Assembly (NCBI GenBank): GCA_018064545.1
Contig: JAGHUY010000337.1
Span: forward strand, 1-10,260
Source of the DNA: Candidatus Apopatosoma intestinale
GTDB taxonomy: Bacteria; Bacillota; Clostridia; Oscillospirales; CAG-272
Length of the DNA: 10,260 bases
Direction of reading: 5' to 3'
The position numbers were made by a program, and so were the translations under genes. The notes below the pieces were generated by a model. That model ran no database searches. It saw only the letters and a program-made list of their open reading frames with translations, and was not told where the DNA came from. The number at the start of each line of letters is the position of its first letter. Within the stretch, counting starts at the first letter, position 1. Positions 5,748 through 10,260 of this stretch are shown here, in pieces.

Positions 5748-6830
5748 ATGGCAAAATCGAAAAACAAATCGGCAAATTCGTTTTTTGTGCTTGCGCTTAC
5801 GGCATTGTTTTTTCTGACGACAACAGCGGAAAGCAGTGAAAATCAAAACCGCCTCACCTCCTATGACAGCATTCCCGTTCTGGCGGCGGGAGAGCAGGTG
5901 ATCGCGGGCGGGATCCCGTTCGGTGTGCGGCTCCACACGGACGGGGTGCTGGTTCTGAACGTATGCGACGTTTGGAACGGAAAAGAAAACAAACGTCCGG
6001 CCTCGGACGCCGGGGTTCGCCGCGGCGATCTTGTCACGACGGTCAACGGTGAAAAAATACGCGACGCGTCCCATTTCTGCGATCTGTGCGGAAAATCGGG
6101 CGGTGCGGGACTGAAACTCGGCATTCTCCGGGACGGGAAACCGAAGACGGTGATTGTCCGGCCGGAGCCGAATCCGGACGGGGACTATAAACTGGGTATG
6201 TGGGTCAAGGACAGCGCGGCCGGTATCGGGACCGTCACGTTCATCGATCCCGAAACCGGGGTGTTCGGGGGACTGGGACACGGCATCACGGAAGCCTCGA
6301 CGGGAGAACTGCTCCCACTGGCCTACGGAACCTCGGAAAACGTCGCTCTGACCGGCATCCATGCGGGCAGAGCCGGTGTGCCGGGCGAACTGCAAGGCCG
6401 CTTTACGGGAGAAAAAAGCGGAAAACTGTTAAAAAATACCGAGACGGGCGTTTACGGACTGTTTTCCGAAATTCCCTCTTCCGTTTCGGGAGAGCGGTTT
6501 CCGATCGGAAAAGCCGAGGACGTCCACGAGGGAAAAGCCGTCATGATCACCTCGGTAGCCGATGGAAAACGCGAATGTTATGAGATCTTGATCTCGGAAC
6601 TCTGCACGTCGGCAAAGCAGAAAAACTTTACCGTGACGGTGACGGATGAACGTCTGCTCGCGGAGACGGGCGGGATCGTTCAGGGCATGAGCGGCAGTCC
6701 GATCATTCAGGACGGCAAACTCATCGGCGCGGTCACACACGTGCTCATCGGCGACCCGCGGAGCGGCTACGGGATTTTCATCGGCAATATGCTTGCCGAA
6801 CTGGAATCCTTTGACAGCGCCGCCGCATAG
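5748..6830 (+). CDS. spoIVB: SpoIVB serine peptidase (S55 family, PDZ domain)
   Basis: In Bacillus SpoIVB is made in the forespore, crosses the inner membrane and cleaves SpoIVFA, releasing the SpoIVFB protease that processes pro-sigma-K. The 360-residue product has one N-terminal hydrophobic segment (about 10-27), a PDZ domain (about 45-140, with DAGVRRGDLVTTVNGEKI) and the S55 peptidase domain. The expected triad is His178 in GGLGHGI, Asp300 in TVTDERLL and Ser315 in VQGMSGSPI; the Asp-Ser spacing of 15 equals that recalled for Asp363/Ser378 of B. subtilis. VTHVLIGDPRSGYGIFIGNML follows as usual. The start at 5748 is chosen for AGGAAGCGG just upstream; the earlier in-frame ATG at 5646 would add unrelated residues. 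It is slightly shorter than the Bacillus protein. The stop codon TAG is also the first three bases of a dispersed inverted-repeat sequence. spoIIE follows, not spo0A, the common neighbour. Confidence 0.95.
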   Translation: MAKSKNKSANSFFVLALTALFFLTTTAESSENQNRLTSYDSIPVLAAGEQVIAGGIPFGVRLHTDGVLVLNVCDVWNGKENKRPASDAGVRRGDLVTTVNGEKIRDASHFCDLCGKSGGAGLKLGILRDGKPKTVIVRPEPNPDGDYKLGMWVKDSAAGIGTVTFIDPETGVFGGLGHGITEASTGELLPLAYGTSENVALTGIHAGRAGVPGELQGRFTGEKSGKLLKNTETGVYGLFSEIPSSVSGERFPIGKAEDVHEGKAVMITSVADGKRECYEILISELCTSAKQKNFTVTVTDERLLAETGGIVQGMSGSPIIQDGKLIGAVTHVLIGDPRSGYGIFIGNMLAELESFDSAAA

Positions 6831-6883
6831 CCTGACAGGACTCATCCGCCTGCAAAACCCGGTTCGGATTGGTTTCGTCGGGC
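6828..6883 (+). repeat. Stem-loop abutting the spoIVB stop, related to the 9847-10122 element ends
   Basis: TAGCCTGACAGGA (6828-6840), including the spoIVB stop codon, is identical to the ends of the element at 9847-10122. It also shares ATCCG three bases further on. Positions 6830-6848 pair with 6865-6883 as 13 Watson-Crick and 4 G-U pairs with 2 mismatches, around a 16-base loop. The right arm resembles a degenerate right end of the same element (14 of 20 matches). No T-run follows, so it is not a standard terminator; a 3' mRNA stabiliser or an element remnant is more likely. Confidence 0.65.
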
Positions 6884-6937
6884 GATAATCGAACGCAAAA
6901 ACCTTCAAAAACCCCCATAAGCCATAAGCTCTCACCA

Positions 6938-7008
6938 CGGTACGTGCCGACACGGGAAAATGGACGGAAAGAATGCAAAAACCGCCCTCCCGTTCTCGAC
7001 ACGTACCG
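6938..7008 (+). promoter_or_regulatory. Long inverted repeat upstream of spoIIE
   Basis: CGGTACGTG (6938-6946) and CACGTACCG (7000-7008) are perfect 9-base arms. Inside them ACGGGA (6952-6957) pairs with TCCCGT (6988-6993). CGACACG occurs in direct orientation in both halves (6948-6954 and 6997-7003). CTCGACA (6995-7001) differs by one base from TTCGACA, the complement of the Spo0A box, so Spo0A control of spoIIE as in Bacillus is possible. The rest of the 6884-7092 gap shows no gene. Confidence 0.5.
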
Positions 7009-7033
7009 CGTTTTCGTTGTGATACAGTATCTC

Positions 7034-7060
7034 TTGAAAACCGCTTTTTGCTTGTATCAT
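7034..7060 (+). promoter_or_regulatory. Candidate spoIIE promoter (weak)
   Basis: TTGAAA (7034-7039) and TATCAT (7055-7060) are 15 bases apart, shorter than ideal. In Bacillus the spoIIE promoter is also a non-canonical sigma-A promoter needing Spo0A, so an odd spacing is not disqualifying. The start would be near 7067, with AAAGGAAG before the ATG at 7093. Confidence 0.35.
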
Positions 7061-7092
7061 TTTGTCCTCGCGGGCGGGAAAGGAAGAAAAAC

Positions 7093-9510
7093 ATGACGAA
7101 AGAAAAAATGGGTTCCACAGTGTCTTCGATGACGGTGCCGACAGGAAAGACGGGAAAGGCGGTACAGCGCTTCATGCTTTTCCTGGAAGCCGCCGCCTAC
7201 ATAGCGGCCGGTTTCTTCTTCTGCACGGCCGAATTGCCTTTTGGGGCAAGGGTTTTGGGCGTTTCCCTCGTGTGCGCCGTCTCACGCGGGGCGCCGTTCG
7301 TTCTTCTCGGGGTCCTCGGCCGGTCGATCACGGAGTACGTGTTTGTGCAGGACTTGTCTCTTTTGATCTTTGCCTTTGCCGCCCTACTCGCCTGTGCCGC
7401 CAGAGTCATTTTCAGCATGGCGTTCTGGCATCCCCGCGATTTCGGCGGATTCGTGATGCGGGACGGATTGGCGGGACGGATTCTCCTCTCCTCCTTCGTG
7501 ACGGCCACGGCCTCCGCCGTGCTCCTGTTTCTCGGGGAATATTCGTTCTCTCTGCTGCTCGACGGCATTTTTGCCACCGTCTGCGCCGCTATGTTCACGT
7601 TTCTTTTCAGTCTGGTTTTTGAAAAGAATTACAAATATACGACGTTTTTTGACACGGGCATGGCCGCGTTTCTGTTTGCGGCGGTGCTGTCTCTTTCGGG
7701 CATTGAGGTGCTCGGCATTACCGTCGAACTCTGCGCGGCGTTTGCGGCGACTTTGTACATCGGGTATTTCGGGCAGGCGGCGCGCGGGTGCGCGACCGGA
7801 CTGCTGATCGGGATCGCCTGCGGCGGGCCGTATATCCCGCTTTTCGCCGTGGCGGGACTGGCGGCCGGCGTTTTCTATCGGATCGGGGTGCTTGCCGGGT
7901 CGCTTCTCTCCGTCGGCGTCTTCGTCTGCGGGTCCATGCTGACCGAGACGGGGATCGCCTATGAGACGTATTTGCCCGAAATCCTGATCGGTGCGGCACT
8001 GGTCACGATCCCCGCCCTGATCGGCGGACTGCCCGATCTGTGTCTGTACGGAAGAGATACGCCGGACGGCATGACGGTAAGCGACATCATCGTGCGCAGG
8101 CGCGAGGAGGAAAACCGGAAGCGGATGGAGGGCCTTTCGCAGACGATGTGTTCGGTTTCCGACGTTCTCCGGGAACTTTCGGACAAGTTCCGCACGCCGG
8201 ATCGCGGATCGGTGGAAAAAATGTGCCGCGACATCTGGCGGAGCCACTGTGCCGAGTGCGGGGGCGGGTGCTCCCCGTTGGAACTCTGCCGGGGAGACGG
8301 ATCGTTTTTGGAAAAATTCACGGCGCGTCTCATGCGGGACGGAAAACTCTCCGCCGATCAGATCGAGGACTTGGTGGGAACCGAATGCGGCCATCTGAAC
8401 GCCATTCTCGGCGACGTGAACGCCTGTGCCGCCAAGATGATCGGGGAGGCGATCGCGCGGGATAAAACGCAGATCTTCGCCTATGATTATGACGCCACGG
8501 CGCAGATTTTGGCGGATGCGGTCGCGTATGCCGACGGGAATTACCGGCCGGATCGTGTGCTGACGGAACGGCTGAAACGCGCGTTTTTGGCCTCCGGAAT
8601 CGCTGCGGAAAATCTGGTCGTTTGCGGAGATCGCAAAAAAGTGATCGTCGCCTGCGGCGGGGAACTGACCCGCGCCGTCCTCGGGGTGGAGGACGTCCGC
8701 AGACTGTGCGAAAAAGTATGCGGCGTTTCGCTGGCTCCGCCGGAATTTCTGATGGAGGGAGACCGTGTCGCCATGATGCTCGAATCCTCCTGCCGGTTCC
8801 GTGTGGAGCACGCCGGGAAACAGGCCGTCAAACCCGGGGAGGAGTACTGCGGAGACGCGATTTCGGTCGTGCAGAATAAGGACGGCTATTTCTACTGCTT
8901 TATCTGCGACGGCATGGGAAGCGGCAGGGACGCCGCGCTGACGGCCCGGATCTGCCGCGTCTTTCTGGAAAAGATGCTCGCCTGCGGCAACAAAAAGTCC
9001 ACGGCGCTCGAAATGCTGAACACCATCATCCGCTGTAAAAGCACCGAATGTTTTGCCACGGTCGATCTGCTGGAAATCGATCTGATGCTCGGAACGGCTT
9101 CCTTTATTAAAAGCGGGGCGACGCCGTCCTATGTGATCCGGGACGGGAAACTGTTCAAGATCGCCAGTTCCACGGCTCCGATCGGCATTTTGCCGCAGAT
9201 GCAGGCCGAGGTGACGGAATTCGATCTTCTGGAAAACGACATCATCGTGCTCTCCTCCGACGGGATCGCCTATGACGACGAGCTGTTCCGGGCCGATGAC
9301 ACGGCGTGGTTTGCCGAAATGCTGGAAACCGAATGCGGAGACGATCTGCCCGCGATGGCGCAGAAGATCGTCTCCATGGCCTCCCGGCAGAACACCCGAT
9401 CCGACGACATGACGGTGGAACTGATCCGGGTGCGGAAAGCGCAGGTCGATGCCGCCGTCGTGCCCCTGCCGGAATACACCCCCGAATCCGTCGCCGAACC
9501 CGTCCTGTGA
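7093..9510 (+). CDS. spoIIE: Stage II sporulation protein E (membrane PP2C phosphatase)
   Basis: SpoIIE dephosphorylates SpoIIAA and so turns on sigma-F in the forespore; it also works with FtsZ at the polar septum. The 805-residue product has a polytopic membrane region (about 20-310, many hydrophobic helices), a central regulatory domain (about 320-575), and a C-terminal PP2C-type phosphatase domain. Phosphatase metal ligands and motifs visible are Asp588 (EYCGDAIS), Asp606 (FICDGMGSG), Asp723 (VLSSDGIAYDD) and Asp771-Asp772 (NTRSDDMTVELI). A Cys cluster (about 378-401, CRDIWRSHC, CAECGGGC, then LC) opens the regulatory part. About 25 residues follow the catalytic core. The ATG at 7093 is chosen because AAAGGAAG sits at good distance. 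An upstream in-frame ATG at 6973 would add 40 unrelated, Arg-rich residues. Length is close to the 827 residues of B. subtilis. Its usual flanking genes are absent; it sits downstream of spoIVB after a 262-base gap. Confidence 0.96.
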   Translation: MTKEKMGSTVSSMTVPTGKTGKAVQRFMLFLEAAAYIAAGFFFCTAELPFGARVLGVSLVCAVSRGAPFVLLGVLGRSITEYVFVQDLSLLIFAFAALLACAARVIFSMAFWHPRDFGGFVMRDGLAGRILLSSFVTATASAVLLFLGEYSFSLLLDGIFATVCAAMFTFLFSLVFEKNYKYTTFFDTGMAAFLFAAVLSLSGIEVLGITVELCAAFAATLYIGYFGQAARGCATGLLIGIACGGPYIPLFAVAGLAAGVFYRIGVLAGSLLSVGVFVCGSMLTETGIAYETYLPEILIGAALVTIPALIGGLPDLCLYGRDTPDGMTVSDIIVRRREEENRKRMEGLSQTMCSVSDVLRELSDKFRTPDRGSVEKMCRDIWRSHCAECGGGCSPLELCRGDGSFLEKFTARLMRDGKLSADQIEDLVGTECGHLNAILGDVNACAAKMIGEAIARDKTQIFAYDYDATAQILADAVAYADGNYRPDRVLTERLKRAFLASGIAAENLVVCGDRKKVIVACGGELTRAVLGVEDVRRLCEKVCGVSLAPPEFLMEGDRVAMMLESSCRFRVEHAGKQAVKPGEEYCGDAISVVQNKDGYFYCFICDGMGSGRDAALTARICRVFLEKMLACGNKKSTALEMLNTIIRCKSTECFATVDLLEIDLMLGTASFIKSGATPSYVIRDGKLFKIASSTAPIGILPQMQAEVTEFDLLENDIIVLSSDGIAYDDELFRADDTAWFAEMLETECGDDLPAMAQKIVSMASRQNTRSDDMTVELIRVRKAQVDAAVVPLPEYTPESVAEPVL

Positions 9511-9659
9511 TCCCCCGACAAAACCGGAGGTTTTCGGAGAAAAACAGAGAATAACGGAGCAAATCGGTGATTTTCAACAATTAACCCCCGCTTTTTCATG
9601 GCTCTTCATAGTTAATTCCGATTAAATCCGATTTTTTCCGAAAATTTTTGAAAAAAATA
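9511..9659. other. AT-rich spacer after spoIIE
   Basis: No gene is seen. Positions 9514-9536 can form a bulged hairpin (CCG, AAAACC pairing with GGTTTTCGG) just past the spoIIE stop, but no T-run follows, so it is a poor terminator. ATCCGATT-like words recur around 9615-9645. Confidence 0.4.
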
Positions 9660-9688
9660 TTGCATTTTGAAAACGTATCTGTTATAAT
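9660..9688 (+). promoter_or_regulatory. Orphan sigma-A promoter
   Basis: TTGCAT (9660-9665) and a perfect TATAAT (9683-9688) are separated by 17 bases. The start would be near 9695. No protein gene with a ribosome site follows within 400 bases; an intrinsic terminator follows after about 100 bases. Confidence 0.8.
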
Positions 9689-9694
9689 GCACGT

Positions 9695-9797
9695 ATGAAT
9701 AAAAGGGGCGGCAGATTACGCCCCCGGCGTTCGGTATTTTTTAATATTGTTCACGGCACTTTTTTTGCACGGAAAGTTTTCTTTTCGTGCATTTTTT
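9695..9797 (+). ncRNA. Candidate small RNA or leader RNA of about 100 nt
   Basis: The segment is bounded by a strong promoter (TATAAT ending at 9688) and an intrinsic terminator (9766-9797). It can form GGGGCG/CGCCCC around an 8-base loop (about 9705-9724), a weak AT-rich hairpin near 9733-9750, and the terminator stem. A 34-codon frame beginning with ATG exactly at the predicted start and ending in the terminator T-run has no ribosome site and is very basic, so I treat it as chance. It matches no RNA family I recognise: 6S, SRP, tmRNA and RNase P do not fit. It could be a trans-acting RNA or the attenuated leader of the downstream transporter operon. Confidence 0.55.
9766..9797 (+). terminator. 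Intrinsic terminator of the orphan transcript
   Basis: An 11-bp stem (9766-9776 with 9781-9791, one G-U pair; TGCACGGAAAG and CTTTTCGTGCA) closes a TTTT loop and is followed by six T (9792-9797). Confidence 0.85.
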
Positions 9798-9846
9798 GAA
9801 GCTTGATGCGAAAACCGTCGTTTTTTCGGGTTGGCATCCGTGTGCG

Positions 9847-10122
9847 TAGCCTGACAGGAGTCATCCGAACCCGGTTACCGGGGGCGGATTCTCCGCCATG
9901 CTGTGTTAAAATACTCGTGAATACACAAAGTATTCACTGTGTTTTTGCCTTGCCTACCGAAGAATCCGCTCCCCGGAAACTCTGCGACCCGAAAAGGATG
10001 AATTTGCGAGAAGATTTTCGAGTTTGAGAGCGCAGGCGGGCTGTCGCCCGGGGGGAGCGAAAAGCGGAAAGATTCCGCAAAGGCGCCTTTTCGGGCGGGG
10101 TCGGATTATTCCTGTCAGGCTA
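9847..10122. mobile_element. MITE-like element with terminal inverted repeats
   Basis: The ends are inverted copies: TAGCCTGACAGGA at 9847-9859 and its exact complement at 10110-10122. The match extends to about 26 bases with four mismatches (ATCCGA then CCC shared). Each end begins with TA, as expected for a TA target of Tc1/mariner or IS630-type transposition. No transposase is encoded. The interior is highly structured: CCCGGT/ACCGGG (9870-9882), GGCGGA/TCCGCC (9883-9897), a hairpin repeat (9905-9967), GCGGAA/TTCCGC near 10065-10079 and AAAGGCGCCTTT near 10079-10090. It lies between the orphan terminator and the ABC transporter gene. TGTGCG and CGCACA outside the ends (9841-9846, 10142-10147) form a further inverted pair. 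An RNA-acting palindromic repeat is an alternative reading. Confidence 0.65.
9905..9967 (+). repeat. Dispersed hairpin repeat, copy 2 (inside the MITE-like element)
   Basis: Second copy of the segment at 2116-2177. Its inner stem is perfect: GTGAATAC (9917-9924) and GTATTCAC (9930-9937) around the loop ACAAA, the same loop as in copy 1. The outer stem is weaker here (GTTAAAA with TTTTGCC). The arms differ between copies, and one T-A pair here is a G-C pair in copy 1. Confidence 0.75.
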
Positions 10123-10178
10123 AGCGAGCAGGGCTGGTGGGCGCACAAAAAATTTTTTAAAAAAAGTGAGTGGGGAAA

Positions 10179-10260
10179 ATGGACAAGGAAAAAGTTATCA
10201 TTCGGTTGACAAACGTTTCCAAAAGCTTCGACGACGAACAGGTCTTAAAAAATATTGACC
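10179..10260 (+). CDS. potA: ABC transporter ATP-binding subunit, first 27 codons (PotA-like)
   Basis: The window ends after 27 codons. The visible sequence MDKEKVIIRLTNVSKSFDDE followed by QVLKNID is the standard N-terminus of an ABC ATPase (beta strands before the Walker A motif). It most resembles PotA, the ATPase of the spermidine/putrescine importer; other import ATPases of that subfamily are possible. Walker motifs are beyond the edge. The ATG at 10179 has only a weak ribosome site (GTGAG and GGGG at 10166-10175) and follows an A-T-A run (about 10147-10165) that is likely curved DNA. Expression could come from the promoter at 9660-9688 by read-through of the terminator, or from a promoter in the MITE-like element. 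Confidence 0.7.
   Translation, partial: MDKEKVIIRLTNVSKSFDDEQVLKNID

Follow-up and report, generated by a model that had tools for sequence, protein, structure and literature searches.

The 276-bp non-coding repeat in our window (the whole stretch of 10,260 nucleotides that was analysed) is probably a non-autonomous, MITE-like DNA transposon that belongs to a class-wide superfamily, keeps a selected folded interior and would be mobilised in trans. On the best reading of the evidence, it is MITE-like by anatomy and mobility, is not derived from IS630 by the tests that we made, and belongs to a superfamily that is old. We found that its Y-shaped fold, in which a closing stem formed by the end repeats carries arm 1 and arm 2, is held by compensatory changes despite unlike ends. 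Over many families the interior structure and the length outlast the end sequences, unlike in the bacterial MITEs met in those parts of the literature that we consulted.

A short element in the leader of a polyamine transporter gene

The element starts with TAGCCTGACAGGAGTCATCCGAACCC and ends with GGTCGGATTATTCCTGTCAGGCTA (Table 1), and both its borders and its length of about 276 bp are exactly those of the original prediction. Its terminal inverted repeats, expected of a MITE and foreseen to start with TA, form a 30-nt inverted repeat with an 87% match (9844-9873 paired with 10096-10125). Within the window, exact matches to the 12-mer AGCCTGACAGGA lie at 6829, 9848 and 10110 (reverse); when up to two mismatches are allowed, 0.35 matches are expected by chance. 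At 6829 it forms the stop codon (GCC GCA TAG) of a SpoIVB peptidase ORF (NCBIfam), which verifies the earlier remark that the end sequence recurs at the spoIVB stop codon, the TAG being supplied by the solo end from 6828. The element is non-coding: the mechanical frames that overlap it span 74, 64 and 61 aa and none is transposase-sized, in agreement with the predicted lack of a transposase inside it.

Table 1. Positions of the element, its parts and related features in the window
Feature	Positions	Strand	Remarks
Complete element, TA...TA	9847..10122	+	276 bp; full copies 276-278 bp in four genomes
Left terminal inverted repeat	9847..9869	+	Consensus columns 2-24; its TA would be one copy of the TA duplication
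Right terminal inverted repeat	10100..10122	-	Consensus columns 257-279
Arm 1	9873..9981	+	More conserved of the two arms; source of covariance model R1
Arm-1 conserved core	9905..9952	+	GTTAAAATACTCG, then hairpin 9917-9937, then CTGTGTTTTTGCCTTG
Arm 2	9985..10097	+	Consensus columns 141-254
Decayed solo left end with a bit of arm 1	6828..6870	+	Right edge approximate, by eye
Terminator-like hairpin, potA leader	9766..9791	+	Upstream of the element; also in the orthologous element-free leader

The element was correctly placed, by the original prediction, between a terminator and a transporter gene: it follows the terminator-like hairpin and precedes a potA-type gene that starts at 10179 and runs past the window end. 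The ortholog of this gene in a related genome (G411) is a polyamine (spermidine/putrescine) ABC transporter ATP-binding protein (NCBIfam), and the hairpin, which G411 keeps, suggests a putative attenuator upstream of polyamine transport genes. The further idea that the element supplies a promoter is unsupported, as a sigma-70 consensus scan returned no promoter site in 9600-10260. The arm-1 hairpin was scored as terminator-like on both strands in a scan of the window. A second repeat, at 2100-2225 upstream of the minus-strand ORF 970-2034, has the arm-1 hairpin core in common with the element (79% over 63 bases, 2100-2162) between different flanks, and similar stretches were seen at two other loci (L016 and L042).

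The repeat is also dispersed through its own genome (G000; 371 contigs, 91.8% complete), where 21 pieces match the element, a count that includes end-to-end cross-matches, fragments of one copy and the repeat at 2100-2162. The pieces include a further full copy (L002, 91% identity), a 190-bp deletion copy (L003), several copies that are partial (L004, L005, L006, L008 and L009), half copies, solo ends and a 59-bp derivative with little beyond the two ends (L010). The repeat family that had been proposed is thus real, and the element is far from a one-off: it is short, free of protein-coding content and present in many dispersed copies, as MITEs are. Two half copies (L005 1501-1582 and L006 1501-1582) stop, by eye, in the arm-1 apical loop, as though the tip of the hairpin had snapped.

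One fold with many ends

Folded as RNA, the element reaches -148.1 kcal/mol on the plus strand and -132.2 kcal/mol on the minus strand, and none of 200 dinucleotide shuffles was as low on either strand (z = -9.26 and -9.76, respectively, part of which is due to the inverted repeats themselves). The consensus from ten full copies in four genomes contains nine helices, of which one is the closing stem, three lie in arm 1 and five in arm 2. When copies were folded and tested for covariation, as had been proposed, 34 of the 88 consensus pairs had both partners altered in one or more sequences, compensatory changes that a structured RNA would also display. The covariation score was 0.380 (0.151 when shuffled, 0.055-0.107 when slid), and four of the five covariation measures exceeded all 500 shuffles, which do not preserve relatedness; the fifth, further pair types, was equalled by 47 of the 500. 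For two more alignments, each with a structure predicted from the alignment itself, double-changed pairs numbered 64 of 98 and 48 of 95. In a 49-row alignment, the entropy was higher in the outer ends (1.09) than in arm 2 (0.95) or arm 1 (0.65), and of all the groups measured the unpaired positions of arm 1 were the least variable (0.56) and those of arm 2 the most (1.27). The arm-1 core follows the pattern GTTAAAATACTCG - hairpin - CTGCGTTTTTGCCTTG, and the position of CTGTGTTTTTGCCTTG reads CTGCG in most copies.

Mispairs bear on the molecule in which the fold is maintained. We counted G-U and A-C mispair events at 98:80, 53:73 and 24:29, counts that share ancestry, and in the first alignment the two arms leaned in opposite directions (34 A-C and 16 G-U in arm 1, 16 A-C and 38 G-U in arm 2). 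Because the two kinds of mispair are about equal, with no strand-specific tolerance of G-U, selection as RNA on one strand is not supported. The balance favours either maintenance at the DNA level or RNA selection on both strands.

It is a point of scale that the original prediction did not foresee: the family proved multi-copy as proposed, and it is spread through the class. At E<=0.001, a covariance model of arm 1 (R1, 130 positions) matched 92 of the 394 order-level genomes, and at E<=1e-5 it matched 67 of the 391 class-level ones, 60 of these 67 lying outside the order; copy numbers per genome are lower bounds (at least 8 in the best-supplied genomes). Element ends were located by pairing in two sets, one at the order level (including G000 and G411) and one at the class level, and the end finder passed 89 of 97 and 54 of 59 matches, respectively. 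Although it could return lengths from about 160 to 400, 73 of the 89 and 51 of the 54 copies measured 270-284 bp, in total 124 of the 143 accepted. The ends read TA...TA in 67 of 89 and 44 of 54 copies, shares somewhat inflated by a bonus that the finder gave for TA, and the third base was a purine at 219 of 222 TA ends. Strict TA targeting is not universal, since 22 of 89 and 10 of 54 copies have no TA pair by the rule used and one genus (G038, G062 and G081; loci L078, L205 and L206) has ends without TA. By eye, the flanks of these three loci look like 2-bp repeats, for example AA...AA or GT...GT.

The end sequences are very unlike between copies, yet each matches its partner (TAGCCTGACAGG, TAGGGTAGAGCGAA, TAAGGTGACAAG, TAAGCAAACACG, TAGCCAAAGCATT, TAGCCGAAAGAG and others). 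The ends of some subfamilies (L067, L083, L211-L213 and L196-L200) resemble a tRNA T-arm and acceptor strand (GGGTTCGACTCCC); ends reading GGGTTCGANTCCC also look tRNA-like, and the inner end motif GGTTCGGATT of other subfamilies is close to GGGTTCGACTCCC. We dropped the idea of mosaic ends, raised by a locus that resembled a within-genome end swap (L050), because end types mostly follow the interior clades: a tree of 55 interiors required 13 end-type changes (minimum 11, shuffled mean 37.6).

Mobility and insertion context

Presence and absence at orthologous sites point to movement. G411, the genome that contains L053, has an orthologous potA leader without the element, and this leader keeps both the potA start and the terminator-like hairpin. 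By reading, it also keeps an upstream promoter-like stretch, where the window scan found none. The element of our window and that of G411 are identical at 264 of 276 positions, whereas matching gene stretches of the two genomes reach only 63-80%; strong conservation, as an alternative to transfer, might account for this 96% identity. We compared joined flanks with empty loci, the check put forward in the original prediction, and found the expected single TA in two of seven comparisons (L064/L142 and L063/L155, the latter with a 1-base gap beside the TA), consistent with the target-site duplication of a MITE. The other five gave no clean junction: four loci were element-free with a diverged or gapped junction, and one aligned a single flank only.

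Insertions avoid coding sequence. By mechanical ORF calls, 15 of 59 insertions (first set) and 7 of 42 (second set) lie in ORFs, whereas among control TAs the figures are 5159 of 7128 and 4658 of 6337, respectively. There is a hint of a preference for the TA of stop codons, which took 13 of 44 non-coding insertions in the first set (89 of 1969 control TAs, p=9e-8) and 3 of 35 in the second (62 of 1679, p=0.14). In addition, a ribosome-binding site and start codon on the minus strand adjoin the left end more often than the right (26 vs 7, n=89, p=0.001), a side bias that we predicted in writing ahead of the second-set analysis and that was repeated there (11 vs 1, n=54, p=0.006). A bias towards both neighbours being antisense (33:15, or 30:14 by a later rule, in the first set) was not repeated in the second (17:15) and was discarded; together with the stop-codon preference, it makes two predicted context signals that failed in the second set.

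We propose that a trans-acting DNA transposase or recombinase would cut at the element ends, and that insertion would duplicate 2 bp, mostly TA. The folded interior, above all the arm-1 tip, may be retained for helping the element to move or to be tolerated, probably acting as DNA in the form of a hairpin or cruciform. Since the ends have the sequence TAR, an element that entered a TAA or TAG stop codon at its TA would leave a stop codon in place, and such insertions may therefore be harmless. The copy in our window was inserted into the leader of the potA-type gene, downstream of the terminator-like hairpin and ahead of the start codon. More tentatively, and at well under even odds, we consider that this may be an ancient, class-wide and gene-less family whose folded DNA interior, rather than its end sequence, is read by a host-encoded or orphan recombinase, with ends that drift while they stay paired and copies that settle preferentially beside ribosome-binding sites and stop codons.

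The side bias is not predicted for a symmetric DNA element, and it is one of several observations that would suit a functional structured RNA, cis-regulatory or processed, that is merely repeated, with a fold selected in transcripts and ends that form an RNase III-type stem like that of Correia/NEMIS. The minus strand, on which the adjoining ribosome-binding sites lie, is the sense strand there, and such a reading would also account for the strong covariation, the low variability of the unpaired arm-1 positions and an arm-1 hairpin that is terminator-like on both strands. We nevertheless regard it as unlikely: the element is present or absent at orthologous sites, the antisense bias of neighbours failed to repeat, and no overall excess of G-U over A-C is seen, although selection on two strands would give the same result. 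Searches against Rfam yielded no match at the gathering threshold in 12 loci and none in the window element at E<=1, where RAGATH-25, which lies outside the element and scored 15.4 of 49 bits, was the only hit within 9500-10260.

Alternatively, the arms might be unselected and their complementarity kept by arm-to-arm template switching, with covariation as a mutational by-product. The near-equal G-U and A-C mispairs fit such DNA-level correction, but the strong conservation of the unpaired arm-1 core and a length close to 276 bp in the large majority of accepted copies make this account improbable.

Candidate mobilisers and relation to known repeats

The original prediction had suggested an IS630 or Tc1/mariner-type partner with the same ends, and this is not supported by our searches. 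Among 12-mer end pairs in the own genome, no transposase-bearing pair was found, and the only wider inward pair runs from 6829 to 10121 and spans spoIIE. Across six genomes, searched with one end type that is numerous in only three of them, there were no IS-sized end pairs, and sites like TAGGGTRGARCRAA paired at 157-279 bp only. The autonomous relative expected of a MITE was hence not seen in either search. Longer copies were rejected as autonomous forms (332, 357 and 358 bp, too short for a transposase), and 19 odd copies, re-examined, had no right end at IS distance in the available flank (fewer than 80 bases in five of them).

A classical IS630/Tc1-mariner MITE, whose IS630 transposase either persists or was lost recently, would explain the TA target and duplication, seen here with exceptions in one genus, and TA-type elements in other bacteria (RUP, Correia and ERIC), of which RUP shares the ends of IS630-Spn1, are described in the sections of a review that we consulted (PMC2229807). 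Transposase association, which we limited to PF13358 and PF01797, speaks against this. PF13358 (IS630) was found in 22 of 394 genomes (E<=1e-6), without enrichment among genomes with the element (8 of 92, vs 14 of 302 others, p=0.19), and in none of the 21 genomes with at least 8 element matches, so we give this origin little credence.

We give still less to the view that the element resembles REP/REPIN repeats and is moved by a RAYT-type (Y1) transposase encoded in a single copy. The hairpin structure, the lack of a visible autonomous partner and the one Y1 gene in the own genome fit it, but PF01797 (Y1), at a threshold of 1e-6 that would miss strongly diverged RAYTs, is not enriched (34 of 92 genomes with the element vs 92 of 302 others, p=0.25) and occurs in only 8 of those 21 genomes; to our knowledge, a TA duplication is not expected of the REP/RAYT mechanism.

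Carriage of the element by phages or plasmids was considered and rejected, as only core fragments and no element were matched. Viral contigs searched with core patterns gave one match and then none, the one being, by eye, 20 bases without the remaining element. When the window copy was run through blastn, four plasmid records from Subdoligranulum and a single phage record matched, and only over 39-62 nt of the core; on inspection, three of these five belong to another repeat with different ends, and there was no match for one G045 copy in plasmids or one G381 copy in phages. This third repeat (L114, L115 and L116; faecal phage and Subdoligranulum records) has the arm-1 hairpin core between ends like GGCAACACCGCACAATTC, and the core motif is therefore common to several repeat families.

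As a rule, a bacterial MITE is known from one genus and is identified by the ends that it has in common with an IS. The bcr1 repeat of the Bacillus cereus group is likewise a mobile repeat with a predicted RNA structure, for which we know of no partner, as with the 276-bp element; unlike it, bcr1 has a 5-bp duplication and is known from a single species group. In the descriptions that we consulted, the Correia/NEMIS elements are similarly small and non-coding, with 24-bp inverted ends, target duplication, TA termini and a foldable transcript, and RNase III cleavage at their ends is reported (PMC2229807, PMC10969869); those descriptions set them apart as repeats of Neisseria, whereas here one structure extends over many families with many unlike ends. 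According to the same review, RUP of Streptococcus pneumoniae is also small, intergenic and TA-targeted, but its ends are common with IS630-Spn1, and no such partner was seen for our element (PMC2229807). ERIC of enterobacteria has inverted ends, target duplication and TA termini, and differs in its 7-bp ends, its length of about 127 bp and its one 5'-to-3' stem-loop in place of two arms on a closing stem (PMC2229807). CIR of Caulobacter/Brucella comes close in having two linker-joined arms and a conserved motif in the arm tip, but is without a 5'-to-3' closing stem in the review's account, while the ends of the 276-bp element pair (PMC2229807). Within a literature sample that included, in part, PMC10969869, PMC2229807, PMC3049150 and PMC2267715, and that left subscription journals mostly outside its scope, we found no description of a 276-bp hairpin repeat family.

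The 276-bp family reverses the usual MITE pattern: its ends are unlike, whereas a single interior structure and a single length recur across many families in the class. Should recognition depend on the interior, an undescribed mechanism of mobilisation would be indicated. The family would also put a name to a repeat that adjoins many ribosome-binding sites in these genomes.
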